From assembly GCF_001905125.1 (NCBI RefSeq), contig NZ_LWLE01000005.1, forward strand, positions 1 to 64,000: a DNA stretch of 64,000 bases, read 5' to 3'. A model generated the notes under the pieces. The model was not told the origin of the DNA, did not search any database, and saw only the letters and a list, made by a program, of their open reading frames with translations. The stretch comes from Streptomyces sp. TSRI0281 (lineage in GTDB: Bacteria > Actinomycetota > Actinomycetes > Streptomycetales > Streptomycetaceae). Position 1 is the stretch's first letter, and each line of letters begins with the position of its first letter. The translations under genes and the position numbers were made by a program. Of the stretch, positions 1,576 through 13,717 are shown piece by piece.

Positions 1576-1827
1576 ATGAGGATGAGGACAGGGCGTCGTC
1601 CCAGACGTCCCGGATCCCGGACCGGACCGGACCGCACCTGCGTCGAGCTCGTCGGCGACGCGCTGGGCGGCCGGCTCGTGGATGTCACGAGCCGGCCGCG
1701 CGAGGAGCGGGCCGCCGGGCCCGTACCGATCACGAACGACAACCGGTACGGGCCCGGCTGCCACGCCGACTACGAGCCGCGCGCAGACGACCCCAGCCTG
1801 TGGGACTGGTCCGGCGACGCACCCTGA
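1576..1827 (+). CDS. Small hypothetical protein, possibly 5'-truncated
   Basis: An 83-residue frame whose C-terminal 60 residues look protein-like: CVELVGDALGGRLVDV, a Gly-Pro-Gly-Cys stretch and a tail YEPRADDPSLWDWSGDAP. Such tails occur in short Streptomyces hypothetical proteins. The first 20 residues are Arg/Pro-rich and resemble translated non-coding DNA, and there is no clear ribosome binding site before the ATG, so the true N-terminus may have been lost by deletion or frameshift. No function can be assigned. The flanking stretches 1390-1575 and 1828-1951 show no gene. Confidence 0.4.
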   Translation: MRMRTGRRPRRPGSRTGPDRTCVELVGDALGGRLVDVTSRPREERAAGPVPITNDNRYGPGCHADYEPRADDPSLWDWSGDAP

Positions 1828-1951
1828 CCCCCGCCTCCTCCGGTGGGAGCGGGCCGATAAGGATGAGTGCTGCGCCAGGGGTTCGGGTCCCGGTTCCAGC
1901 GATCAGCCGTCGGACGAGGCCCCTGACCGCCTTCCCGCTTCTGCGTCGCGG

Positions 1952-2650
1952 TCAGGGGCGCCAGTCGAAGGGGAAGTGCTTGCTGGATCCACCGCGGTAT
2001 TCATGGGAGAAGTCGAACCCCTCCGCATGGTCGCTCTCGACGACGCCCCAGGTGGCGATCTGGCCGGGGCCGACCTCGGCGCCCGGAGAATTGATCAGCT
2101 GGACGCGGCGGGAGGGGTCGGCGGTCGGGCCGGTGAGCGCCGTCGCGCCGACGGAGACCTTGTCGGCGACACGGGCCCGCCAGTACGAGAGATCCTCGGC
2201 GGCCTCGAAGTGGACCGGCGCGTACCGCACCTCGCGCAGTTCGCTGATGAGCGAGCCGAACTGACCCGGCCAGCCGCCGACATGACCAGCGAAGATCTGT
2301 TCCAGCGCGTCACGCTGAGCCTGGTCGCCCTTGGCGTCGATGTAGAGCATCACCTTCATCGTGGCGTCCGGGTCACCGACCCACATGTTCCCGGCGAACT
2401 CTCCCAGTGCCACCACTCCCAGGCCGTCCAGGCGCACGTCCCCGAAGTGCCCCTCGTGAACCTGCCAGACGAGCGTGAAAAGACAGTCCCCGTGGGTCGG
2501 CGTCTGGGCGAACGTACAGGGGCAGGGCAGTGCGCAGCTGCACACGTCGAACCACTCACCCCGTAAGTGCCAGTCGGGCAGCATGCCATCACTCGTGCCC
2601 GCTCGGACGACGGCGGGCACGCTTGGCGATGCGGCGGAAGTGGTACACAT
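1952..2650 (-). CDS. DUF1326 domain protein, CsoR-regulated candidate
   Basis: A 232-residue soluble protein of the DUF1326 family. After a short N-terminal tail, the family signature WHLRGEWFDVCSCALPCPC follows, with four clustered cysteines (C37, C39, C43, C45), an arrangement suited to metal or thiol chemistry. The start is placed at the ATG at 2650 because GGAGG lies 5 bases upstream; longer frames extend into operator DNA. Two palindromes of the TACCCC...GGGGTA type (2670-2686 and 2734-2748) sit directly upstream, which ties the gene to copper control by the adjacent csoR. The role of DUF1326 proteins is not established; a copper-binding or detoxifying function is an inference from context and the Cys cluster. 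Confidence 0.85.
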   Translation of the reverse strand: MCTTSAASPSVPAVVRAGTSDGMLPDWHLRGEWFDVCSCALPCPCTFAQTPTHGDCLFTLVWQVHEGHFGDVRLDGLGVVALGEFAGNMWVGDPDATMKVMLYIDAKGDQAQRDALEQIFAGHVGGWPGQFGSLISELREVRYAPVHFEAAEDLSYWRARVADKVSVGATALTGPTADPSRRVQLINSPGAEVGPGQIATWGVVESDHAEGFDFSHEYRGGSSKHFPFDWRP

Positions 2651-2669
2651 GGTGACCTCCAGATCACTC

Positions 2670-2686
2670 ATACCCCTAAGGGGTAT
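2670..2686. promoter_or_regulatory. CsoR-type operator upstream of the DUF1326 gene (proximal)
   Basis: ATACCCCTAAGGGGTAT, a near-perfect 17-bp palindrome with 8-bp arms around one central base. It lies 20 bp upstream of the ATG at 2650, where bound repressor would block transcription. The same TACCCC...GGGGTA pattern recurs at copZ and the other copper genes in this window, matching the GC-tract palindromes known for CsoR. Confidence 0.8.
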
Positions 2687-2733
2687 CTCGTGGACAAGAG
2701 AAAGACTAAGGCTCGGCAAGTCCCCACGGCAAC

Positions 2734-2748
2734 TACCCCCTGGGGGTA
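2734..2748. promoter_or_regulatory. CsoR-type operator upstream of the DUF1326 gene (distal)
   Basis: TACCCCCTGGGGGTA, a perfect palindrome with 7-bp arms, 48 bp from the proximal site. On the minus strand a possible promoter (TTGCCG, 18 bp, TAGTCT) would lie between the two operators, so the pair could bracket RNA polymerase. The promoter call is weak, the palindrome itself is clear. Confidence 0.75.
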
Positions 2749-2972
2749 CCTCAGTTGACAGCGTGGCCTGGGCGTTCGGGGCGGCGCTTCGTCGCTCCGG
2801 TGGGCGGACAGCACGCGGTACGCCGCCATCGGCGTTGCGCAACTGCGGCGACGCCTGCGCGTTTGACCCCTGTACGGTCTCGATCTCACGCCGCCGAAGC
2901 GGGGCTCCGCTTCCAGTTGCTGATCGGTTCGGTCGCAGCCGGCCCGGACCGGCCGTCACCAGCCTTGCGGAG

Positions 2973-3254
2973 TCACGAGCGCACGAGCCGGGCGATGGCG
3001 TCGCCGGCTTCCTTGAGTTTCATGTTCCCGTCTTCGCCGCCTTCCGCGACGGCGGCACGGACACAGGTGTCCATGTGTTCGTCGAGCATCTGCAGGGCGA
3101 AGGACTGCAGGGCGCGCGTGGTGGCCGCGACCTGAGTGAGGACATCGACGCAGTAGGTGTCCTCTTCGACCATTCTCTGCAGACCTCTCACCTGCCCTTC
3201 TATGCGCCGCAGCCGTTTGAGCTCATTCTGTTTGTGAGTGCTGTAGCCGGCCAT
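2973..3254 (-). CDS. csoR: Copper-sensing transcriptional repressor CsoR
   Basis: A 93-residue all-helical DUF156/CsoR-family protein. The N-terminus has the family pattern LKRLRRIEGQVRGL. The copper ligand set of true CsoR proteins is present: C35 (TYCVDVL), H60 and C64 (DEHMDTC), with Y34 and a Glu near residue 82 as second-shell candidates. This Cys-His-Cys pattern separates it from RcnR- and CstR-type relatives. Cu(I) binding releases the tetramer from GC-tract operators. The ATG at 3254 has AAGGAGG 5 bases upstream. It lies between the DUF1326 gene and the His-rich secreted protein, all on the minus strand, but no operator palindrome was found in the 245 bp upstream of csoR itself, so it may be constitutive or co-transcribed with its upstream neighbour. 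Confidence 0.95.
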   Translation of the reverse strand: MAGYSTHKQNELKRLRRIEGQVRGLQRMVEEDTYCVDVLTQVAATTRALQSFALQMLDEHMDTCVRAAVAEGGEDGNMKLKEAGDAIARLVRS

Positions 3255-3499
3255 CGATTCCTCCTTGCCGCTGCGGGCTCCTGTGCTGCTGTGGACGTGC
3301 GCAACGCACCTGCCCTCCGTCGGCCGACCGCGGCAGGGCCGGGACGACAGGAGATCAGGTGCGGTTGCGCGCCGGCGAGTGAACCAGGGTTCGTTGCTCG
3401 GATCTCCTGACGTGGCCGCGGTGTCGGGGGCTCGGTGGCCGTACGGGCCGTGGTGATCTGCCGGACACCCGGGCCGACCGCCGCCACGGGCAGTGGCGG

Positions 3500-4447
3500 T
3501 CAGTGCTGGTGCCCGCCGGGCTCATCGGCGTCCGCCGCCGTCTCCGGCGTGGCGGACTTCCCGGCCTGGACAGTGAAGGCCGCGGTGCGGACAGTGCCGT
3601 TGTGCTTGAAGTCCAGGAAGAGGCGGTAGCTGCCCGAACTGGGCACGGTGGTGCTGAAGGAGATACCGGGGCCGGGCTTCGTGGTGCCGTCGCCGGGTTC
3701 ACCGTTGGGGTGGACATGGAGGTAAGCGAGGTCGCCGGAGCGCAGGGCGACCAGATGGCCGTAGGCACCGAGGTAGGGCTGCAGGTCGGTGACCGGACGG
3801 CCGTCGCGGCTGACGCCGAGGGTGACGCCGGACGTCTTGCCCGGGGTCAGGTCGCCGTTGAGAGTGACGGCGTAGCCGTCGACGGTGGAGACGGTGGCCG
3901 GCGCGGGCAAGGCGGCGGCCTTGTAGGGGCCGGAGGCCGCGAGGTCGGCGCCCAGAGTGAGGTTGGCCGCTTTGCCGGTGGCCGGAGTGAAGTCGGCGAA
4001 GACGCGGTAGGAGCCGGCGGCGGGCAGGGTGACGGGGGTGCTCCAGGTTCCGTCGGCGGCCCGGGTGGGGTGAAGGTGCCGGTAGGTGACCAGGTCACGT
4101 GAGGCAAGGATGAGATGCAGTTCCTTGTCGTGCTCGCGCTGGAACGAGGTGACCTGTCGCCCCTGCTGATCACGGATGGCGAAGCGGAGTTCGCTCTTTT
4201 CTCCTGCGGCGACGCGAGGAGTCTTCAGGTCGAGGGTGTACCCGGCCTGGGAGATCTGCAGGCCTGCGGGCGTCGCGTCCACCCGGCCGCTGTCGCGATC
4301 CGGGGTTGACGGCTTGTCGTGAGCCGCGTGGGCCGCCGACGGCGGATCCTGCTTGATGGGGTCAGCTGCTGTACCGACGCCATAAGCGGCACCGAAGGTC
4401 GCCGCGACCGCGGCGGCAAAAGCAGTGATCTTAACGCCCGTGTTCAT
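3500..4447 (-). CDS. Exported His-rich beta-rich protein, copper-associated
   Basis: A 315-residue protein with an N-terminal signal or anchor (residues about 5-27, Ala/Val-rich) and a predicted extracytoplasmic body of two beta-rich repeats. Each half carries histidine motifs: YRHLHP in the first and YLHVHP near QPYLGAYGHLVALRSGDLA in the second. The protein ends in GGHQH. This layout resembles YtkA/FixH-like and other Ig-like domains found near copper genes. The start at 4447 follows a purine-rich AAAGGGCC; longer frames run into operators. It is divergent from copZ and shares a promoter region with three CsoR-type palindromes. It is a paralogue of the protein at 7795-8637. Periplasmic or cell-surface copper binding is inferred, not proven. 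Confidence 0.8.
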   Translation of the reverse strand: MNTGVKITAFAAAVAATFGAAYGVGTAADPIKQDPPSAAHAAHDKPSTPDRDSGRVDATPAGLQISQAGYTLDLKTPRVAAGEKSELRFAIRDQQGRQVTSFQREHDKELHLILASRDLVTYRHLHPTRAADGTWSTPVTLPAAGSYRVFADFTPATGKAANLTLGADLAASGPYKAAALPAPATVSTVDGYAVTLNGDLTPGKTSGVTLGVSRDGRPVTDLQPYLGAYGHLVALRSGDLAYLHVHPNGEPGDGTTKPGPGISFSTTVPSSGSYRLFLDFKHNGTVRTAAFTVQAGKSATPETAADADEPGGHQH

Positions 4448-4500
4448 GAGGGCCCTTTCTCTGCGGTGTCGCACTTTCCGCGACGAGCACCCTCGACTAT

Positions 4501-4600
4501 ATACCCCTGGGGGGTATGAGCAAGAACGTCGGAGCATTTGGAGAATATACCGGCAGGGGGTATACATGGGAGATCACCATTGGTACCCCCCATGGGTACC
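4501..4600. promoter_or_regulatory. Triple CsoR-type operator array between His-rich gene and copZ
   Basis: Three palindromes in 100 bp: ATACCCCTGGGGGGTAT at 4501-4517; TATACC and GGTATA arms at 4546-4551 and 4559-4564; GGTACCC and GGGTACC arms at 4582-4588 and 4594-4600. The region serves two divergent genes, with ATG at 4447 on the minus strand and at 4629 on the plus strand. The site nearest copZ ends 28 bp from its start codon and the first lies 53 bp from the other start, so each promoter has at least one operator and the middle one could serve both. Confidence 0.8.
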
Positions 4601-4628
4601 TGTAGGCGCGCATCCTTCAGGAGGAACC

Positions 4629-4907
4629 ATGTCCTGCTGCACCCCCGACGGCAGCTGCTCCACCGACACCGTCACGGTCGACGTCATCGAGGGCACCACC
4701 ACCGTCTACAACGTCTCCGGAATGACGTGCGGGCACTGCAAGGCCACGCTCACCAAGGAGATCGGCGCCCTGGACGGCGTCCTGATGGTGGACGTCGACG
4801 TTGAGGCCGGCCGGGTCTCCGTGACCACCTCCGGCGAGCCCGACGACGCGCTGCTGGCGAAGGTCGTCGACGACGCCGGCTACGAACTCAACGGCCGCGC
4901 GGCCTGA
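4629..4907 (+). CDS. copZ: Copper chaperone CopZ (heavy-metal-associated domain)
   Basis: A 92-residue protein with one HMA domain. The Cu(I)-binding loop GMTCGHC places ligands at C34 and C37, and the fold ends with the usual DDAGYEL. The protein has an unusual N-terminal extension of about 25 residues beginning MSCCTPDGSC, giving three extra cysteines that could form a second copper or thiol site. The ATG at 4629 follows AGGAGG by 5 bases. It is the first gene after the triple CsoR operator and lies 81 bp before copA, so it should hand Cu(I) to the N-terminal domain of CopA. A small hairpin between the two genes may lower copA expression relative to copZ. Confidence 0.93.
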   Translation: MSCCTPDGSCSTDTVTVDVIEGTTTVYNVSGMTCGHCKATLTKEIGALDGVLMVDVDVEAGRVSVTTSGEPDDALLAKVVDDAGYELNGRAA

Positions 4908-4925
4908 CGACTCCGCCCACCGGTC

Positions 4926-4943
4926 GGGCCCGTCCTCGGGCCC
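4926..4943 (+). terminator. Hairpin between copZ and copA
   Basis: GGGCCCG, loop TCCT, CGGGCCC: a perfect 7-bp stem followed by a pyrimidine run (CTCCTTCTTTCCCCC). It sits between two genes that should share a promoter, so it is better read as an attenuator or mRNA-stability element than as a full terminator. Confidence 0.5.
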
Positions 4944-4988
4944 GGCTCCTTCTTTCCCCCTAGAACCCGCCCAGCCCGAGGAGCGGTG

Positions 4989-7253
4989 ATGGCTACCACG
5001 GTCCCTGAGACAGCCGAGGTCGAACTCGCCATCGGCGGCATGACCTGCGCCTCCTGCGCGGCCCGGATCGAGAAGAAGCTGAACCGGATGGAGGGGGTCA
5101 CCGCCACTGTCAACTACGCCACCGAGAAGGCGAAGGTCGCATTCGACGCGGACATCGCCGTGACGGACCTGATCGCCACGGTGGAGGCCACCGGCTACAC
5201 CGCCCGCGAGCCCCGGCCGGAATCCGCGTCCGGCGCGGCCGGTTCCGGGGAGGGCGGGCCGGACCGGGCGGCGGCCGACGAGCTGCAACCACTGAGGCAG
5301 CGGCTGATCACGGCCGTGGTCCTGACCGTCCCCATCATTGCGATGGCGATGATCCCGGCGCTCCAGTTCGCCTACTGGCAGTGGCTGTCGCTGACCCTGG
5401 CGGCGCCCGTGGTGACGTACGCGGCCTGGCCCTTCCACAAGGCGGCGTTCACGAACGCACGGCACGGCGCCGCGACGATGGACACGCTGATCTCCGTCGG
5501 CACCTCGGCCGCGTTCCTGTGGTCGCTGTGGGCACTGTTCTTCGGCTCCGCCGGCACGCCCGGCATGACGCACCCCTTCGAGTTCACGATCGCCCGCAGT
5601 GACGGCGCCGGGAACATCTATCTCGAGGCGGCCGCCGGAGTCACGGCCTTCATCCTGGCCGGGCGCTACTTCGAGGCCCGCTCCAAGCGCAAGGCCGGCG
5701 CCGCCCTGCGCGCCCTGCTTCACCTGGGCGCCAAGGACGTCACCGTGCTGCGCGGCGGACGTGAGGAGCAGATACCGGTCGGCGAGTTGAACGTCGGGGA
5801 CCGCTTCGTGGTCCGTCCGGGCGAGAAGATCGCCACCGACGGCACGGTCGTCGAGGGCACCTCGGCGGTCGACGCTTCGATGCTCACCGGCGAGTCCGTA
5901 CCCGTCGAGGTCGGTGTGGGCGACGCCGTCACCGGGGCGACCGTGAACGCCGGCGGACGCCTGGTGGTGGAGGCCACGCGAGTGGGCGCCGACACGCAGC
6001 TCGCCCGCATGGCCAAGCTGGTCGAGGACGCGCAGAACGGCAAGGCGGCGGCCCAACGGCTCGCCGACAGGATCTCCGCCGTCTTCGTCCCCGTCGTCAT
6101 GGCTCTGGCCCTGGGCACCCTGGGGTTCTGGCTGGGCAACGGTGCCGGTCTGACGGCCGCGTTCACCGCCGCCGTCGCGGTCCTGATCATCGCCTGCCCC
6201 TGCGCCCTGGGCCTGGCCACGCCGACCGCGCTGATGGTCGGCACCGGCCGCGGCGCTCAGCTCGGCATCCTGATCAAGGGCCCGGAGGTGCTGGAGTCCA
6301 CGCGCAAGGTCGACACCGTGGTCCTGGACAAGACCGGCACTGTCACCACCGGGCGGATGGCCCTGCTGGCCGTACACACCGCGGAAGGTACGCGAGAGGA
6401 GGACGTCCTGCGCCTGGCGGGCGCCCTGGAACACGCCTCCGAGCACCCGATCGCCCGGGCGGTGGCCGCGGGTGCCGTCGAACGGGTCGGTACGCTTCCC
6501 ACGCCGGAGGACTTCGTCAACGTGCCTGGCCTCGGCGTTCAGGGGGTGGTCGAGGGCCACGCGGTCCTGGTGGGCCGCACCAAGCTCCTCGCCGAGTGGG
6601 CCATGGACCTGCCCGCCGGCCTGGCGCGGGCCAAGGCGGACGCCGAGGCCGCGGGCCGCACCGCGATCGCGGTCGCCTGGGACGGCGAGGCCAGGGCGGT
6701 CCTTGAGGTCGCCGACGCCGTCAAGGACACCAGTGCCGAGGCCATCACCCGCCTCAAGGCCCTGGGGCTGACACCGATCCTGCTGACCGGCGACAACAAG
6801 GCCGTCGCCGAGGCGGTGGCCGCGGAAGTCGGCATCGCCGAGGTGATCGCCGAGGTCATGCCGGAGGACAAGGTCGACGTCGTCAAGCAACTGCAGGGCG
6901 AGGGCCGTTCGGTCGCCATGGTCGGTGACGGTGTCAACGACGCCGCCGCACTCGCCCAGGCCGACCTCGGCCTCGCCATGGGCACCGGCACCGACGCCGC
7001 CATCGAGGCCGGCGACCTGACTCTCGTCCGCGGCGATCTGCGGGCCGCCGCCGACGCCATCCGCCTGGCCCGCAAGACGCTGGGCACCATCAAGTCCAAC
7101 CTGTTCTGGGCCTTCGCCTACAACGTGGCCGCACTTCCGCTGGCCGCGGCCGGACTGCTCAACCCGATGATCGCCGGAGCCGCCATGGCGTTCTCCTCGG
7201 TCTTCGTCATCAGCAACAGCCTGCGCCTGCGCGGCTTCAAGGCAGCCGCCTGA
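4989..7253 (+). CDS. copA: Cu(I)-exporting P1B-type ATPase CopA
   Basis: A 754-residue P-type ATPase that pumps Cu(I) out of the cytoplasm. It has one N-terminal metal-binding domain (GGMTCASC, C20 and C23), eight expected membrane segments, the intramembrane CPC motif in [16 protein letters not shown], the phosphorylation site DKTGT, the P1B-specific HP in EHPIARAV, and the hinge MVGDGVND. All catalytic residues are present and the length is normal. The ATG at 4989 is chosen because GAGGAG lies 5 bases upstream; a GTG at 4986 adds one residue. It is downstream of copZ under the triple CsoR operator and is followed by a very strong hairpin. Confidence 0.96.
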
Positions 7254-7274
7254 AATCCGCCCGCGCCACACAGG

Positions 7275-7309
7275 AACGAGGGGCGGGCCCGCCGGGCCCG
7301 CCCCTCGTT
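7275..7309 (+). terminator. Strong terminator after copA
   Basis: A perfect 16-bp stem (AACGAGGGGCGGGCCC at 7275-7290) with a 3-base loop and its exact complement at 7294-7309, 22 bp after the copA stop. It ends with TT but lacks a long U-tract, as is usual in Streptomyces. Confidence 0.85.
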
Positions 7310-7697
7310 CGCGTAACGGCTCCCCGGAGGGCAGCCGGTCGGACACACAAGGAGGTTCCCCATGGCCGCATCATCATGGACCAGCACGGTAGGCCGGATA
7401 GCCGGCCATCCCGTCGTGAGGATGGCAGCCGCCGCGACACTACAAGCTCTGGCGTCCCATCTCACCCAGCAGGACAGGCCTGGACGTCCTGCACGGACGC
7501 GTGCGCCCGTGTGCCGGCCGGTCGCTCCGAGGTGCCTGCTGCCCGTCGGTAGACGCACTCACGCGTGCACGCCGCGCACCGCGGCACCGTCGCCGGTCCG
7601 GCCGTGCGGCTGCGATCCGCGTGCCCCCGGGCGCGGCGCCGCACCCGGTGCGGGTTCCCACGACGACACGCCACCCGTCGAGACACCCCTGATGGGA
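7310..7697. other. 388-bp stretch without an assignable gene; one RBS-led frame
   Basis: No recognisable gene. A frame starting at the ATG at 7362 is preceded by a near-perfect AAGGAGG 6 bases upstream and begins MAASSWTSTVGRIAGHP, but after about 40 residues it becomes Arg/Pro/Cys-rich, as translated non-coding DNA does, and it runs on without stop through the next operator and into the following gene in the wrong frame. This could be the start of a gene broken by a frameshift or deletion. The remainder up to 7697 shows nothing I recognise. Confidence 0.4.
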
Positions 7698-7714
7698 ATA
7701 CCCCCTAGGGGTAT
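7698..7714. promoter_or_regulatory. CsoR-type operator upstream of second His-rich gene
   Basis: ATACCCCCTAGGGGTAT, the same palindrome family as at copZ, 80 bp upstream of the ATG at 7795. The spacing leaves room for a promoter overlapping or just downstream of it and a short leader. Confidence 0.8.
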
Positions 7715-7794
7715 GTTGTTGTGGCGGGTGTACCGCATACGGACACCGCACCGAAGGTGCATCACCCAGCACACATCACACAGGTGGAGACACG

Positions 7795-8637
7795 ATGAAG
7801 AACAATTCCGGCCACGACATGACCAGCCACAGCGGCCACGGCGGAGCCCGTCCCGGCGGGCTGTCGGTCTCCGAGAGCGGGTACACCCTCGACCTCGACT
7901 CGACGATCCTTTCCACCGGGGCGCAGACGGTCACCTTCCGGGTGATCGGTCCCGATGGACAGCCGGTGACCGAGTTCACGCCCGAGCACGAGAAGGAACT
8001 GCACTTCATCGCCGTCCGGCGCGACACGACGGGGTTCCAGCACGTGCACCCGGTGATGGACGAGAAGGGCACCTGGAGCATCGACGTGGCCCTGAAACCC
8101 GGAGACTGGAGGTTCTTCGCCGACGTCCACCCGGTCGGCCATGACGCGACCATGACGCTGGGGATCGACGCCTCGGTCGCCGGGCAGTACGAGCCGCAGC
8201 CGCTTTCCGAGGACACCCGCACCGCCCACGTAGCCGAGTACACCGTCACCCTCGACGGCGAACTCGCGCCCGGTGAGGCGAGCGACCTGACGCTCACCGT
8301 CAGCCGGAACGGGCAGCCCGTCACCGATCTGCAGCCCTACCTGGGCGCGTACGGGCATCTGGTGGCGCTGCGGGTCGGCGACCTCGGCTACCTCCACGTC
8401 CACCCGGAGGGCGAGCCCGGTGACGGCGCCACCGCGCCGGGGCCCGAGATCACCTTCATGGCCGCCGCGCCGTCGGGCGGCACCTACCGCCTCTACCTGG
8501 ACTTCCAGCACAACGACGTCGTCCGGACGGCCGAGTTCACGGTGCGGACCACCGCCACCGCCCCCCACTCGGACACGGCATCCCAGGCCGCACCCGAGCA
8601 CACGAGCCACCACCCCGGCGACCACGCACACCACTGA
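7795..8637 (+). CDS. His-rich beta-rich protein without signal peptide, paralogue of 3500-4447
   Basis: A 280-residue protein related to the exported protein at 3500-4447 along the whole body: shared landmarks are SESGYTLDL, EHEKELHFI, FQHVHP, DLQPYLGAYGHLVALR, YLHVHPEGEPGDG and a Tyr-Arg-Leu-Tyr-Leu-Asp-Phe strand. It differs at both ends. The N-terminus, MKNNSGHDMTSHSGHGG, has no hydrophobic signal, and the C-terminus is a His-rich tail (HTSHHPGDHAHH). An in-frame stop at 7690 and the absence of other in-frame starts rule out a hidden signal peptide. GGTGGAG lies 5 bases before the ATG. A cytosolic copper-buffering partner of the exported paralogue is a reasonable inference; no enzyme motif is visible. 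It is controlled by its own CsoR-type operator. Confidence 0.82.
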   Translation: MKNNSGHDMTSHSGHGGARPGGLSVSESGYTLDLDSTILSTGAQTVTFRVIGPDGQPVTEFTPEHEKELHFIAVRRDTTGFQHVHPVMDEKGTWSIDVALKPGDWRFFADVHPVGHDATMTLGIDASVAGQYEPQPLSEDTRTAHVAEYTVTLDGELAPGEASDLTLTVSRNGQPVTDLQPYLGAYGHLVALRVGDLGYLHVHPEGEPGDGATAPGPEITFMAAAPSGGTYRLYLDFQHNDVVRTAEFTVRTTATAPHSDTASQAAPEHTSHHPGDHAHH

Positions 8638-8684
8638 CCGCAGGAACGTCACTGACCAGCTGCCGCGACATACGACGCGGTCAA

Positions 8685-8710
8685 GGGGCGCTCGACTCGT
8701 CGAGCGCCCC
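8685..8710 (+). terminator. Hairpin after the His-rich gene
   Basis: GGGGCGCTCGA, loop CTCG, TCGAGCGCCCC: a perfect 11-bp stem 48 bp after the stop at 8637 and 38 bp before the next start. Confidence 0.75.
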
Positions 8711-8748
8711 GCCGCCCCCGCTCCATCCTCCACGTCGGAAGGACCGTC

Positions 8749-9279
8749 ATGCCCCGCCTGACCCGACTCACGCCCGATACAGCGGTCGGCGCCTCGCGCG
8801 ACCTCCTCGCAGAGCTGGCCTCACGCCACGGCCAGATCGGTGACATGGTCTCCACCATGGCGCACTCGCCCGCTGTTCTGGGCGGCTATCTACAGCTCAG
8901 CCGGGCCATGGGACGAGCCAAACTCGACCGCGAGATCAGCGAACGGATCTCGATCGCCATCCAGGTCCTTCAGGGCTGCGGGCTGTGTCTCGACGCGCAT
9001 GTCAGCGCTGCCCGCGCGATGGGAGTGGACGAGGAAGAGATCGAGCGTGCCCGAGCGGGCACCTCGGCCGATCCCGCGATCGCGGCGATCATCACCCTCG
9101 CCCTCCAGGTCTACCGCGAGCCGACGTCGATCACCGACGACCAGTTCATCGCGTTGCGCGCGCACGGCTACAGCGACCGCGCGATAGCCGACGTCGTCGG
9201 CGTCGTCGCACTCAACATCCTCACCGGCGCCTTCAACCTGCTCGCCGGCCTCACGCCGGAGAGCGGCACCGATGCGTAG
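8749..9279 (+). CDS. AhpD-like carboxymuconolactone decarboxylase family protein
   Basis: A 176-residue all-helical protein of the CMD/AhpD family. The redox motif C-G-L-C-x3-H (C77, C80, H84) is the AhpD-type CxxCxxxH site, which supports thiol-disulfide or peroxidase-partner chemistry rather than lactone decarboxylation. The preceding Glu-Arg-Ile-Ser pattern in REISERISIAIQ is also typical of the family. GGAAGGA precedes the ATG. Lying inside the copper island between a His-rich protein and an MFS exporter, it may help deal with the oxidative side effects of copper; that is inference. Hairpins on both sides suggest it is not simply co-transcribed at full strength with the genes around it. 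Confidence 0.85.
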   Translation: MPRLTRLTPDTAVGASRDLLAELASRHGQIGDMVSTMAHSPAVLGGYLQLSRAMGRAKLDREISERISIAIQVLQGCGLCLDAHVSAARAMGVDEEEIERARAGTSADPAIAAIITLALQVYREPTSITDDQFIALRAHGYSDRAIADVVGVVALNILTGAFNLLAGLTPESGTDA

Positions 9280-9301
9280 AGACATCCCGGCCTCCCTCTG
9301 T

Positions 9302-9333
9302 GGGGCACGGCCTCCGGCCCGAGACCGTGCCCC
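9302..9333 (+). terminator. Hairpin after the AhpD-like gene
   Basis: GGGGCACGG at 9302-9310 and CCGTGCCCC at 9325-9333 form a perfect 9-bp stem with a 14-base loop, between the stop at 9279 and the MFS start at 9361. Confidence 0.55.
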
Positions 9334-9360
9334 GCCGCATGGACATGGAAGGAACACGCC

Positions 9361-10635
9361 ATGCGCCTGTTCGCCATCCGCGACTACCGCCGTCTGTTCG
9401 GCGCCCAGATCATCGCCCTGCTCGGTACCGGGCTGACAACAGTGGCCCTCGGGCTGCTCGCCTACGACCTCGCCGGCCCGCGCGCCGGCGTGGTCCTCGG
9501 CACCGCGCTGACCATCAAGATGGTCATGTACGTGGTCATAGCTCCGCTCGCCGCCGCGTACGTCGACCGCTTCTCCAGAAGAACCCTCCTGGTCCTCCTC
9601 GACGTGATGCGCGCCGCAGTAGTCCTGGCGCTGCCGCTCGTCACCGAGGTCTGGCACATCTATGTACTGATCGGCCTGCTCCAAGCCGCGTCCGCGGCGT
9701 TCACCCCGACGTTCCAGGCCGTCATCCCCGACATCGTCACCGATGAGTCCGACTACACGCGTGCCCTGTCCGCCTCCCAGGTCGCCTCCACCATGGAAAG
9801 CCTGCTCAGCCCCGTACTGACTGCGGTCGCCCTGGCATTCATCAGCATCGACTGGCTGTTCCTGGGCACCTCCGCCGGATTCCTCCTCTCCGGCCTGCTC
9901 GTCCTGTCGACGCGCATCCCCGACGCCCGCCCCAGTGCCCACACCAAGGCATGGGACAAGGCGGCGGCGGGGATCAGGACATTCCTCAGGACTCCGCGGC
10001 TGCGCGGCGTCCTGGCGCTCAATCTCGTGGTCGCGGCAGCGGGATCGATCGTCGTCGTCAACACCGTCAATTACGTCCGTGACGAACTCGGCGGCTCGCA
10101 GTCGGACGTCTCATGGATGCTCGCCGCCTCCGGCGGCGGAACCCTCCTGGCCGCCCTCTCGCTGCCCCCCATACTCGACCGGATCACCGCCCGCACCGTG
10201 ATGGTGACCGGCGCCGGAGTCCTCGTCGGCGGCACGATCGCCGCGGTGGCTCTCATCGCGGCCGGCCTGACCACATGGACCGGTACGGCGATCGTCTGGA
10301 CCGTGATCGGCATCGGCATGGCGCTGATCATCACACCGACCGGCAACGTCCTGCGCGCCTCCGTCGCGCCGAACGCGATCCCCGAGGCCTTCGCAGCCCA
10401 GTTCTCCCTGTCGCATCTTGCCTGGCTGATCACCTACCCCATCGCGGGAGGGCTCGGTACGAACGCGGGCTTCGCTCTCGCCTGGTCCGTCCTCGCGGTC
10501 CTCGCCGGGGCGGGCGCCATCGGCGCTCTCCTCCTGTGGCCGCGCCACGACAGCCGAGGAGCCGTGACCCGACCCGCGACGCTCGTCCGGCCCGCGCGCC
10601 GGACGGACAGGTCCACCCTGTCCAAGGCCGCGTAG
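9361..10635 (+). CDS. MFS transporter (MFS_3/EntS-like)
   Basis: A 424-residue, 12-helix membrane transporter. The N-terminus FAIRDYRRLFGAQIIALLGTG is typical of MFS_3 exporters (siderophore or drug efflux type), and the loop between helices 2 and 3 has DRFSRRTLLVLLD, the family's A-motif region. GGAAGGA lies upstream of the ATG. It follows the AhpD-like gene by 81 bp within the copper island and ends at a large hairpin. The substrate is unknown; efflux of a copper-binding metabolite or drug would fit the neighbourhood but nothing in the sequence proves it. Confidence 0.85.
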   Translation: MRLFAIRDYRRLFGAQIIALLGTGLTTVALGLLAYDLAGPRAGVVLGTALTIKMVMYVVIAPLAAAYVDRFSRRTLLVLLDVMRAAVVLALPLVTEVWHIYVLIGLLQAASAAFTPTFQAVIPDIVTDESDYTRALSASQVASTMESLLSPVLTAVALAFISIDWLFLGTSAGFLLSGLLVLSTRIPDARPSAHTKAWDKAAAGIRTFLRTPRLRGVLALNLVVAAAGSIVVVNTVNYVRDELGGSQSDVSWMLAASGGGTLLAALSLPPILDRITARTVMVTGAGVLVGGTIAAVALIAAGLTTWTGTAIVWTVIGIGMALIITPTGNVLRASVAPNAIPEAFAAQFSLSHLAWLITYPIAGGLGTNAGFALAWSVLAVLAGAGAIGALLLWPRHDSRGAVTRPATLVRPARRTDRSTLSKAA

Positions 10636-10686
10636 AACGCTCCGACCGTCTACGCCGCACCCGCACACGCTCCTGGTCAGGCGCAT

Positions 10687-10740
10687 GAGAAGGCCGTAAC
10701 CGCCGTCCCGCTCCGCGCGGGCGGCGGTCACGGCCTTCTC
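10687..10740. terminator. Large hairpin between two convergent MFS genes
   Basis: GAGAAGGCCGT at 10687 pairs with the run ending at 10740 (ACGGCCTTCTC), and an inner ACCGCCG/CGGCGGT pair extends the stem. It lies between the plus-strand MFS stop at 10635 and the minus-strand MFS stop at 10947 and can end both transcripts. The rest of 10636-10946 holds nothing else that I recognise. Confidence 0.8.
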
Positions 10741-10946
10741 GTACGGGACCGAACGGAGCGTCAGGGAAGCGGTTTCCGGGAAGCCGTGTCCGGCGAGCCG
10801 CTACCGGAGGACGGACGGCACGCTCAGCGTCGCGAGCCGGGCACCGGGAGCGGTCCCGATCGCCCGTAGCGCGGATAGTGGGCCACGGAACCTCAAACTC
10901 CCGGCAGAGTCGCCCAGTTGCAGCGAGCACCCGGAGGGAAGGCGTC

Positions 10947-12170
10947 TCAGGGCTGCCGTGCGGCCGCCGGCTCCCTGGCCGGCTCATCGGAGCGCAGGCG
11001 GAGCCGGGCGATCGTGGCCACGACGCCGAGAACGGCGATGGCGACGCCGAGAACCGCCATGGCGCCCTGCACCGTCAGGACGGGAACGAGAAGTCCGGCG
11101 ACGATGGTGGGCACTCCGAGCGCGAGGTAGGAGATGCTGTAGATCACCCCCATGATGGCCGCCCGCTCGGCGGGAACGGTGTACGGCATGAGTGTGCGCA
11201 GCGCCCCCATGAACGAGGTGCCGAAGCCGGAACCGACGATGACCACGGTCGCGAGATACGCGGGGAACGAGTGGGCCGCGAGTGCGGCCAGGCTCAGCAC
11301 CGTACCGATGGCCAGCGCGGACGTTCCGTAGACGGTGATGGCACGCGAGGAGCGGCGGGAGACGAGCCTGGAGGCGAGGATGCCGGAGACGGCCAACGTG
11401 AGCATGACGGTGCCCGCCTGCGTGTGCGTGACGGCGCCGAACTCGCTCTTGACGAGCCCGGCACCCAGCGCGAGAAACAGTCCGTTGGTCGCCGAGCCCG
11501 CGACGATGGCAGGCGCGGCCACGAGGAGCACGCCGCGAAGACGGGGCGAGGCACGGAACCGCGGACGCACCGGTCCGGCGGAGGCGGGCGTCTTCCCCGC
11601 GCTCTCCGGAACGAGCCACACGAGCACGGCGGTCAGGGCGGACAGGCCGGTCAGCGTTCCGAACACCGCCCCCGCAGGGTTCGCCGTGACGTCGAGGAGG
11701 AGCGCCGCCGTCATGGCACCGGTTCCGAGGCCCATCATGGGGGCGATGGTGTTCCACAACGCGGCACGTCCCGGCCGGTGCGGTGGTTCGAAGTCGACCG
11801 TGACCGCCGAGAGAGCGGGTATGAGCAGGCCTGCGGCAACACCTTGGAGTGAGCGGGCGACCAGCAGCAGGCCGAGGCTTTCCGAACGCCAGAAGAGGAC
11901 CAGGCTCGCCGCGAGCAGCAGAGCGCCGACGGTGACGACGGGGCGCCGCCCCTTGGTGTCGGACAGCGGCCCCAGGAACAGCAGTGTCGCGAGCATGGTG
12001 AAGGCGTAGACCGCGAACACCGCGGTCGTCGCGACCGGGGGCAGGGCCAGTTGTTCAGCCAGCTGGGGGTAGAAGAGGGACGGTGCGCTGGCAGAAGCCA
12101 TCGTCAGGATGGTCCCGCCGATGGCGAGGCCGAACCCCCGACGGGCTGCGGTGCGGGCATGTGTGGGCAT
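10947..12170 (-). CDS. MFS transporter (DHA1-like drug exporter)
   Basis: A 407-residue, 12-helix transporter. The loop motif GPLSDTKGRRPVV between helices 2 and 3 is the MFS A-motif, and LLVARSLQGVAAGLLIPA carries the helix-4 pattern of drug/H+ antiporters. The start at 12170 (MPTHARTAARRGFGL) is preferred over longer frames because it leaves a normal short cytoplasmic tail; GGGGAG lies about 11 bases upstream. It faces away from the PadR operon. A CsoR-like palindrome lies about 310 bp upstream of the start, further than for the other copper genes, so copper control is possible but not certain. Substrate unknown. Confidence 0.83.
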   Translation of the reverse strand: MPTHARTAARRGFGLAIGGTILTMASASAPSLFYPQLAEQLALPPVATTAVFAVYAFTMLATLLFLGPLSDTKGRRPVVTVGALLLAASLVLFWRSESLGLLLVARSLQGVAAGLLIPALSAVTVDFEPPHRPGRAALWNTIAPMMGLGTGAMTAALLLDVTANPAGAVFGTLTGLSALTAVLVWLVPESAGKTPASAGPVRPRFRASPRLRGVLLVAAPAIVAGSATNGLFLALGAGLVKSEFGAVTHTQAGTVMLTLAVSGILASRLVSRRSSRAITVYGTSALAIGTVLSLAALAAHSFPAYLATVVIVGSGFGTSFMGALRTLMPYTVPAERAAIMGVIYSISYLALGVPTIVAGLLVPVLTVQGAMAVLGVAIAVLGVVATIARLRLRSDEPAREPAAARQP

Positions 12171-12478
12171 GGAAGGCGTTCTCCCCGGGGATTGGTCGGG
12201 CGCGGGGCCCGCCCACCGGATGGGTTCGGACCGCTGTCCGGCCTGTGCCGAACGAGCGGTGGCGACGGTGCGCACTGCGGCTTTCCGTCGGCTGCGGAGC
12301 GTGGCTGTCCACCGGCCGATGCCGTCGAAGGACCGAAGGGATCATCGACCGCAACCGCACCGGTTTTGGCATGGCACCGCCTGCCGAACTCACCGATGGC
12401 GTGTCCGGTCAGGCGGTGCGGCGTGGCCTCTTCTCCTGGTCAGCCATTCGATCACCGGTTTCCGACAACACCCTCAGC

Positions 12479-12495
12479 ATACCCCCCTAGGGTAT
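12479..12495. promoter_or_regulatory. Isolated CsoR-like operator
   Basis: ATACCCCCCTAGGGTAT, clearly of the same pattern as the copZ operators. It lies 308 bp upstream of the MFS start at 12170 (minus) and about 195 bp upstream of the PadR start at 12691 (plus). No gene of its own is visible. It could control a long-leader transcript of the MFS gene or be what remains of a lost copper gene. Confidence 0.65.
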
Positions 12496-12627
12496 TTTTC
12501 GGCATCGCCATCGCGGCCCCCGAAGAGTGCCGGACGCGTGACGAACCGGCCGCCGCCCGCCCGGGTCACGCACCGCTCGTATCGCTTCCATGGCCCCACG
12601 CTCACCGCCCACCGGACTACTCCGTGA

Positions 12628-12662
12628 TACCGTGTAGCGGTACTCGGTATTACGCAGTACCG
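12628..12662. promoter_or_regulatory. Tandem inverted-repeat operator upstream of padR-type gene
   Basis: Two back-to-back inverted repeats: TACCG-N5-CGGTA at 12628-12642 and CGGTA-N8-TACCG at 12645-12662. They end 28 bp before the PadR ATG and probably overlap its promoter, as expected for an autoregulated PadR protein. Confidence 0.65.
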
Positions 12663-12690
12663 GGAAGGCGGATCGAGGAGGGGAGCCGCG

Positions 12691-13017
12691 ATGGACGACC
12701 TGACGGAGATGCTGAAGGGCACGCTTGAGGGCGGCGTGCTCGAAATCGTCGGCAGCGAGGAGACCTACGGGTACGCCATCACGCGTCGGCTGAATGAACT
12801 CGGCTTCGCCGACGTCATCGAGGGGACGGTCTACACCATCTTGCTGCGATTGGAGAAGAACGGACTCGTTCAGGTGACGAAACGACCGTCCGGGGTGGGC
12901 CCGCCGCGCAAGTTCTATGCGCTCAACGACGCGGGGCGCGAAGAGCTCGGGAAGTTCTGGGCGAAGTGGGAGTACCTCTCATCACGAATCGACAAGCTCA
13001 AGGAGGGCGGGCGATGA
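12691..13017 (+). CDS. PadR-family transcriptional regulator
   Basis: A 108-residue winged-helix regulator. The N-terminal part, LKGTLEGGVLEIVGSEETYGYAI, followed by a second helix pair and wing ending FYALNDAGREEL, is the PadR signature. The protein is of the short (subfamily 2-like) type with a single C-terminal dimer helix. GAGGAGGGG precedes the ATG. Its stop overlaps the start of the first DUF1048 gene (ATGA), so the three genes at 12691-13698 form one operon. PadR-DUF1048 pairs recur in Actinobacteria and Firmicutes; the inducer is unknown. The double inverted repeat upstream suggests autoregulation. Confidence 0.92.
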   Translation: MDDLTEMLKGTLEGGVLEIVGSEETYGYAITRRLNELGFADVIEGTVYTILLRLEKNGLVQVTKRPSGVGPPRKFYALNDAGREELGKFWAKWEYLSSRIDKLKEGGR

Positions 13018-13370
13018 ATTTCTGGGAGACGGTTACCGGCAGCGACCTCACCAGGGAATGGACGGCGTACGAAGCCCGGTCCGAGGCATTGCCGGCCGAC
13101 TACCGGGCGGCATGGGAACAGATCAAGTGTCACCTCTCCCCCTATTCGGGCTTCACGGGCCGCAACCTGATGCCGATCCTCGACGGCGCCCTGGGACTGC
13201 TCGAAGAAACGGCGGCAGATGGGCAGAGCGTTCACGAGGTGCTGGGCGACGACATCAAGGGCTTCTGCGCGGCGCTGGCCGGCGGAGAAGGGGCTCGGAA
13301 CTATCGCGACCGGTGGCGCGAGCAGTTGAACCGGAACGTCGCCAGAAAACTGGGCCGGCTAGGAGGCTGA
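13014..13370 (+). CDS. DUF1048 family protein, first copy
   Basis: A 118-residue soluble helical protein of the DUF1048 family. Family features are the N-terminal ALPADYRAAWEQIKCHL, a middle segment LDGALGLLEETAADGQSVHEVLG and the DIKGFCAAL stretch near the C-terminus. The ATG at 13014 overlaps the PadR stop and has AAGGAGGGCGG upstream, so translation is coupled. It is followed one base later by a second, diverged DUF1048 gene. Function is unknown; constant linkage to PadR regulators suggests a stress or membrane-related role. Confidence 0.88.
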   Translation: MNFWETVTGSDLTREWTAYEARSEALPADYRAAWEQIKCHLSPYSGFTGRNLMPILDGALGLLEETAADGQSVHEVLGDDIKGFCAALAGGEGARNYRDRWREQLNRNVARKLGRLGG

Positions 13371-13371
13371 C

Positions 13372-13698
13372 ATGGGCATCCAGGACATCGTCGAGGGCAA
13401 GAAGCAGTGGCGAGCGCACATGGCGCGCATCAAGGCGCTCCCACCGGATTATCGAATCGTCTACAAGGAGATTCAGAAGTACTACTTCAAGGTCGGACCG
13501 ATCGACCTGCCTGACGGGGCCCTGCTCTCGGAGATTGCCGATTTCTTCGAGGAGGGCGTCGCGTCCGGCAAGGGAGTACTGGAACTCATCGGCAACGACG
13601 TCGCCGCCTTCTGCGACGACCTGGTCAAGGACTCGCGCACCTACGCGGACATCTATCAGGAGTCCATCAGCGGAAAGCCCGGCACGGCCGAGACGTAG
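13372..13698 (+). CDS. DUF1048 family protein, second copy
   Basis: A 108-residue helical protein with the same plan as the gene just upstream: ALPPDYRIVYKEIQKYY, LPDGALLSEIADFFEEGVASGKGVLELIGNDV and FCDDLVKDSRTY. It starts one base after the previous stop, with GGAGG just before it inside the upstream gene. The two copies are clearly related but well diverged, so they are likely partners (for example a heterodimer) rather than a recent duplication. No catalytic motif is visible. It ends the PadR operon. Confidence 0.88.
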   Translation: MGIQDIVEGKKQWRAHMARIKALPPDYRIVYKEIQKYYFKVGPIDLPDGALLSEIADFFEEGVASGKGVLELIGNDVAAFCDDLVKDSRTYADIYQESISGKPGTAET

Positions 13699-13717
13699 AA
13701 CCGACCGGCGGGATGGA

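Follow-up and report, generated by a model that had tools for sequence, protein, structure and literature searches.

In Streptomyces lividans, the repressor CsoR recognizes type 2 sites of the form ATATACCCCTNAGGGGTATAT, and no binding is detectable after a TAC/GTA swap or with Cu(I); sites with more than one TAC/GTA repeat have led to the suggestion of modular CsoR control (PMC3902906, in the available part of the text). The CsoR regulon of S. lividans and Streptomyces coelicolor includes csoR-4375, copZA1 and copZA2 in the accessible parts of PMC3902906 and PMC6414726, and the latter predicts that CsoR controls SCO1044, which adjoins copZA (SCO1045/1046). The RicR regulon of mycobacteria likewise has a CsoR-family repressor and targets scattered across the genome; those given in the accessible part of PMC10141476 are mymT, lpqS, Rv2963, socAB, a multicopper oxidase and ricR, with no DUF1326 gene among them. 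Here we describe a 64,000-nucleotide stretch of Streptomyces sp. TSRI0281 (the window; positions 1 to 64,000 of contig NZ_LWLE01000005.1, also called C5, in a 9.63-Mb genome), in which CsoR-type operator-like sites surround a DUF1326 gene, a csoR gene, copZ-copA and two paralogous His-motif proteins, HisA and HisB. From its sequence, this region is highly likely to be a multi-promoter copper regulon repressed by CsoR that covers DUF1326, HisA/HisB and copZA. It resembles the S. lividans/coelicolor regulon in operator sequence, in its copZ-copA targets and in the predicted control of a gene next to copZA (SCO1044). Relative to what the accessible texts give of that regulon, the window adds a DUF1326 gene with an operator-promoter-operator arrangement, a csoR inside the cluster, and a second, unsecreted His-motif paralogue followed by ahpD and major facilitator superfamily (MFS) genes.

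The initial annotation had reported seven TACCCC...GGGGTA palindromes in four intergenic regions. All seven were located, with starts within 2 bp of those first given; the strict form holds at four, the other three carry mismatches, and TAC-N9-GTA is intact in every one. The sites, listed without strand, are:

2671–2685: proximal CsoR-type operator of the DUF1326 promoter, exact
2734–2748: distal CsoR-type operator, one base before the -35, exact
4502–4516: operator in the likely -35/-10 spacer of the HisA promoter (TTGCTC-16-TATAGT, minus strand), exact
4548–4562: degenerate operator in a possible copZ promoter spacer, two mismatches, position similar in relatives
4584–4598: operator in the copZ leader, one mismatch, retained in a second genome from the same species group (G541)
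7699–7713: operator in the likely HisB promoter spacer (CTGATG-17-TATGTT), exact
12480–12494: operator-like site between the MFS gene MFS2 and a PadR-like gene, one mismatch

The first two lie between DUF1326 and csoR, the next three between HisA and copZ, and 7699 between copA and HisB. With TAC-N9-GTA around G-tracts in all seven, they have the form of the S. lividans type 2 site, the one studied by calorimetry. The one-mismatch sites read TACCCCCCATGGGTA (4584) and TACCCCCCTAGGGTA (12480); the two-mismatch site at 4548, TACCGGCAGGGGGTA, has its left G/C-tract broken.

Exact TACCCC-N3-GGGGTA sites number four in the window against 0.02 expected (100 shuffles), and only six occur in the whole genome of 9,627,007 bp, so chance palindromes were rejected as an explanation. 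Allowing up to one mismatch raises the genome-wide count to 19. Of the six exact sites, the two that fall elsewhere stand before a second copA (contig C1) and a copZ-copA pair (contig C23). None of 60 Markov copies of the window contained an exact site; one-mismatch sites arose at 0.08 per copy and two-mismatch sites at 1.6 per copy; the site at 4548, taken alone, is therefore not above chance. What support it has comes from its position, in a possible -35/-10 spacer before copZ and at a similar spacing in relatives: several have a site 45–48 bp from a neighbouring exact one (for example L066, L070, L077 and L083), and in L081 and L082 the corresponding site has two mismatches, like that of the window. 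G541 retains all seven sites and is too close to count as independent.

The main evidence is comparative and concerns the DUF1326 gene, which has a single match in the whole genome:

1952–2650, minus strand: DUF1326 gene (PF07040), 232 aa, ATG at 2650 with a GGAGG ribosome site (by eye), Pfam 185.7 bits
2703–2732, minus strand: predicted DUF1326 promoter between two operators (-35 TTGCCG, 18 bp, -10 TAGTCT)

Its close relatives form a group of 40 loci at 68–96% identity, from which a fragment truncated at both ends (L124) was dropped. The 39 intact loci comprise 18 from Streptomyces, 20 mycobacterial (L113 and L120 are both M. peregrinum) and one from Sorangium (L102). L085 and L158, on contigs of equal length (29,778), count as one record throughout. 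A CsoR-type site with at most one mismatch and no more than 600 bp upstream of the match is present at 38 of the 39 (exact at 35), including all 18 Streptomyces and all 20 mycobacterial loci. The Sorangium locus has no such site and has a copper-type ATPase gene just upstream instead. By the same measure, none of 67 DUF1326 loci outside the group carries a site. This control was drawn from 30 loci (L026–L055), a further 25 (L130–L154, of which 8 were duplicates and counted once) and 20 hand-picked distant ones (L181–L200); one-mismatch sites elsewhere were seen at L033 (about 1.3 kb upstream) and L190 (about 0.8 kb downstream). A copper link for DUF1326 in general was rejected on the same 0/67, and the tie to copper that the initial annotation had drawn for this gene from its sites is upheld by the difference between 38/39 and 0/67. 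With the operator upstream in other species, DUF1326 is a predicted member of the CsoR regulon. Direct observation covers the sites and where they lie, their association with copper genes, and how they are conserved.

At 34 of the 39 loci the flanks examined (up to 8 kb per side, shorter in some) gave no match to csoR or any of the other window proteins, the exceptions being L085, L089, L092, L102 and L123; the operator therefore travels with the DUF1326 gene and not with the cluster. On a tree of 107 proteins the presence of a site requires two changes, one of them Sorangium, compared with a shuffled mean of 32; the tree, in which long branches were flagged, is compatible with the group as a clade or a grade. 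On plasmids, DUF1326 of M. gallinarum and of S. clavuligerus is preceded by a pair of sites spaced by 59 bp. A link between DUF1326 and CsoR/RicR was not found in the literature searched, which lacks most subscription papers, and neither PF07040 nor 'DUF 1326' occurred in the literature searched for those terms. Within that literature the DUF1326 group, as a predicted conserved CsoR/RicR-type target with a clamped promoter, appears to be new; the type of regulon is known.

Two plasmids show DUF1326 in other company. On the M. gallinarum plasmid (L202 4131–8915), CopC, DUF1326, CsoR-family regulator, DUF302, TauE and MBL genes stand in one row, placing copper genes beside possible sulfur-stress genes. 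On Chroococcidiopsis plasmid pA (L201), a 63%-identical DUF1326 lies about 4 kb from a gene for a four-helix bundle copper-binding protein.

A consensus promoter scan of 1800–13100 found none, and promoters were named from position and comparison. Two sites are present at 34 promoters (that of the window and those of 33 loci), of which 33 share one layout: an xTG -35 one base after the distal operator, 17 or 18 bp, a TAnnnT -10, and the proximal operator 11–20 bp past the -10. The sole departure is L101, with an operator spacing of 38; the other pairs are spaced at 57–59 and 63–66 bp. These spacings are not in one helical phase, so DNA looping through paired operators was rejected and simple double blocking is preferred. 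The fixed operator-promoter-operator layout bears on the modular CsoR control suggested for S. lividans in the available part of PMC3902906.

The remaining genes of the proposed regulon are:

3500–4447, minus strand: HisA, His-motif paralogue with an apparent secretion signal (by eye; alignment A3)
4629–4907, plus strand: copZ, HMA copper chaperone, Pfam HMA 57.6 bits
4989–7253, plus strand: copA, P1B-type copper ATPase, TIGR01511 525.1 bits (cut-off 397)
7795–8637, plus strand: HisB, His-motif paralogue without an apparent secretion signal (alignment A3)

HisA and HisB appear to have promoters of a different class, in which the operator occupies the -35/-10 spacer. The copZ promoter at 4548 fits less clearly: it reads TTGGAG-17-TATACA by eye, and the best scripted solution is TGGAGA-16-TATACA, which ties with one on the opposite strand.

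For the His family, 74 genomes gave matches; the 29 best loci outside this genome, each from a different genome, all have a CsoR site, exact in 25, so that the two paralogues are bound to such sites no less firmly than DUF1326. The tie to copper first proposed for them is upheld by these 29/29 loci; a CsoR link beside copZA was already in print for SCO1044 (PMC6414726, accessible part), of which HisA is probably the orthologue, judging from gene order. Relatives in other genera also keep company with copper genes. In Prescottella (72% identity) and Rhodococcus (62%) their neighbours are copA, HMA and csoR genes; in Paenarthrobacter (46%) the relative precedes a copper ATPase gene and has an exact site upstream; and on a Staphylococcus epidermidis plasmid a 30%-identical relative stands fourth after csoR, copA and copZ, with a one-mismatch site before csoR.

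HisA and HisB are 51% identical, and their difference in secretion signal is kept in one HisA relative and three HisB relatives (A3, by eye). The HisB model (mean pLDDT 76.5, from 6 sequences) has two Ig-like domains. A3 has invariant histidines at 65, 70, 83 and 85 (first domain) and at 188, 201 and 203 (second domain), and an HxHP motif is present in each domain. A fold search with HisB gave general Ig-like matches only, CopC not being among the rows shown, which excludes nothing, and we claim no family; a PDB sequence search with the His family returned nothing useful. A full-length third paralogue on contig C37 was rejected, the match being a fragment only. This fragment (L022 2174–2428) has a one-mismatch CsoR-type site (2405) at its start and looks like a relic.

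Downstream of HisB lie two further genes, the second of which bears on copper export:

8749–9279, plus strand: AhpD-like (CMD family) protein, Pfam CMD 41.3 bits
9361–10635, plus strand: MFS1, Pfam MFS_1 107.6 bits, in a conserved gene order

The order HisB-ahpD-MFS1 is kept in five other loci (L085, L089, L092, L157 and L159), and MFS1, behind the 7699 operator, is a better exporter candidate than MFS2 (10947). The initial annotation had included, as a possibility, an MFS exporter and left MFS1 unnamed; for gene 10947 the one-mismatch site is the single tie, and the link as first drawn was not sustained. We consider it possible, at somewhat below even chances, that control from the 12480 site extends to MFS2 or the PadR-like gene (12691): the site has a single mismatch with TAC and GTA intact, is retained in G541, and has only two such counterparts away from copper genes in the whole genome (C33:312296 and C38:265874, the latter set aside as lying inside a predicted gene), but it sits 205 bp upstream of the called MFS2 start and about 310 bp upstream of a likelier ATG (by eye), with a weak -35 match on either strand. 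The G541 copy, moreover, is too close to be independent, and MFS2 itself, at E ≤ 1e-60, was found in only 2 of the 199 genomes surveyed in the genus, one of them the present genome.

The DUF1326 protein was modelled with a mean pLDDT of 78.7 from 40 sequences. All 10 Foldseek matches at E ≤ 0.001 are acetoacetate decarboxylase (ADC) or ADC-like (TM 0.40–0.50 by query, rmsd 11–14), and in VIA the top 12 entries have Z of 9.8–11.2, against 7.2 for the next. The predicted fold may thus be called ADC-like (compare 3c8w, 4jmd and 4zbo) in a loose sense, with only 6–16% identity to such entries and low TM-scores, and a Cys-x-Cys-x3-Cys-x-Cys motif sets DUF1326 apart from them. A PDB sequence search with DUF1326 gave nothing useful. 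Cysteines 37, 39, 43, 45 and 56 are invariant inside and outside the operator-linked group, and Met89, Met98 and Met101 occur in every one of the 40 rows of alignment A1 and in none of the nine outside-group rows of alignment A2.

These data allow DUF1326 to be an ordinary ADC-type metabolic enzyme that is merely copper-inducible and takes no part in copper chemistry, a reading that we regard as rather unlikely. The predicted fold suits it, as do the five cysteines, which are equally invariant in operator-less DUF1326 genes and hence not specific to the copper group. ADC enzymes use a catalytic Schiff-base lysine. In DUF1326, by a comparison at the sequence level only, the columns listed for A2 as fully or almost fully conserved include no lysine, and the sole lysine kept in all rows that reach it (16/16; 3 of the 19 rows stop short) is K224, near the C-terminus; this may speak against such an enzyme, and the confinement of the three methionines to the group argues against it. 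Regulation together with the cysteine and methionine residues suggests copper binding by DUF1326. We tentatively propose that the operator-linked group represents a new kind of copper handling: a cytosolic protein of ADC-like fold that would bind Cu(I) through an ancestral five-cysteine cluster, with the group-specific methionines (89, 98 and 101) as an adaptation, and would be induced alone from a clamped CsoR/RicR promoter in streptomycetes and mycobacteria.

The regulator within the cluster is:

2973–3254, minus strand: csoR/ricR-like repressor, 93 aa, Pfam 97.9 bits

Its best PDB match is S. lividans CsoR (4adz, E 1.6e-31). C35, H60 and C64, the Cys-His-Cys Cu(I) ligands, are identical to the aligned residues, and R14-L15-R16-R17 (the RLxR motif) and Q41 also align; the motif and the conserved glutamine are required for CsoR-DNA contact (PMC3902906, available part). 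Among the NCBIfam models matched, the RicR model NF052430 scored highest, at 138.6 bits, below its cut-off of 175. The gene has no site of its own in 3255–3499; for a core csoR on contig C7 there is one, with a single mismatch, some 200 bp ahead of the coding part that aligned. The csoR at 2973 is likely one of two copper sensors, together with the core gene. All sites had at first been assigned to the csoR at 2973; the regulator need not be this one, because it has no own site, a core csoR exists and 34 of the 39 DUF1326 loci gave no csoR match in the flanks examined. A third CsoR-family gene lies on contig C12, about 0.8 kb from an MBL-fold-hydrolase-like gene (by eye).

The cluster could also be a horizontally acquired island whose sites are read solely by its own CsoR. 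The same cluster is found on a 1.6-Mb linear plasmid of Streptomyces sp. NBC_01237 (NZ_CP108509.1, 1,601,525 bp), the window begins a contig, and the window cluster may likewise be plasmid-borne. Exclusive reading by the local CsoR is nevertheless improbable, given that DUF1326-group genes elsewhere have these operators at those 34 loci, where the examined flanks yielded no csoR, and that the core csoR and other copA genes share the same operator type. Least probable is a different signal, with a CsoR-family sensor for persulfide (as for CstR) or Ni/Co binding the sites and the genes answering a non-copper cue. The C12 gene beside its hydrolase-like neighbour and the M. gallinarum row of DUF1326, metal-sensitive regulator, DUF302, TauE and MBL genes might suggest this, but both exact sites outside the window precede copA or copZA, the local CsoR retains its Cys-His-Cys ligands and has a copper CsoR as its best alignment, and the M. 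gallinarum DUF1326 has a CopC gene on its other side.

Under copper control by CsoR, we infer the promoters, binding, induction and protein roles as follows. At low copper, apo-CsoR (core, local or both) would occupy the TAC-N9-GTA G-tract operators, which at HisA, copZA and HisB fall within the likely -35/-10 spacer and at DUF1326 would clamp the promoter, one operator abutting the -35 and the other lying just past the start point. Cu(I) bound at Cys-His-Cys would release CsoR and switch on the efflux genes for CopZ and CopA, the secreted and unsecreted His-motif proteins, which are probably copper-binding, as well as DUF1326, whose most likely role is copper binding or copper protection in the cytosol by way of its cysteine cluster. 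DUF1326 and the His-motif proteins very probably belong to the copper response of this bacterium, because related species keep the same sites before the same proteins. A domain without an assigned function and a mostly 'hypothetical' His-motif family would thereby gain a specific, testable place in the actinobacterial copper response.

Several observations weigh against this account. Many of the mycobacterial loci are close kin, so their counts are not independent events, and the three DUF1326 relatives examined outside Actinomycetota, from Sorangium, Chroococcidiopsis (63% identity) and Microvirga (53%), have no CsoR-type site. The clamp is not universal: five intact DUF1326 loci outside the layout count have a single site (L094, L099, L106, L107 and L109). 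By a simple score, 24 of 62 sites at the close His-family loci fit the spacer class, and just 2 of 20 distant His-family places, hand-picked from lower-ranking matches, have a site at all (L165, one mismatch, about 600 bp upstream; L167, exact, on the downstream side). In the window, a hairpin separates HisB from ahpD and may stop transcription there, and in G541 the local copA is down to a short HMA-domain remnant (L157 9215–9466).

The operators near that copA remnant are retained in G541, and S. atratus has a similarly short CopA-like piece (L085 4724–4909). After copA in the window, 7362–7440 has a start with a good ribosome site and a frame that seems degenerate, possibly a gene remnant. 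Outside the window, the site at C33:312296 (L023 1797), TACCCCTACCGGGTA, is of CsoR type with one mismatch and lies about 12 bp before the likely ATG (by eye) of a His-containing small membrane-type protein; it is a possible further CsoR target. A similar-looking protein in S. atratus (L085 8967–11151) adjoins a gene that reads like a multicopper oxidase. At 12600–13700 of the window, the PadR-like gene is followed by two small related-looking proteins and has an inverted repeat, GGTACT...AGTACC, ahead of it (by eye); this unit is possibly self-controlled.

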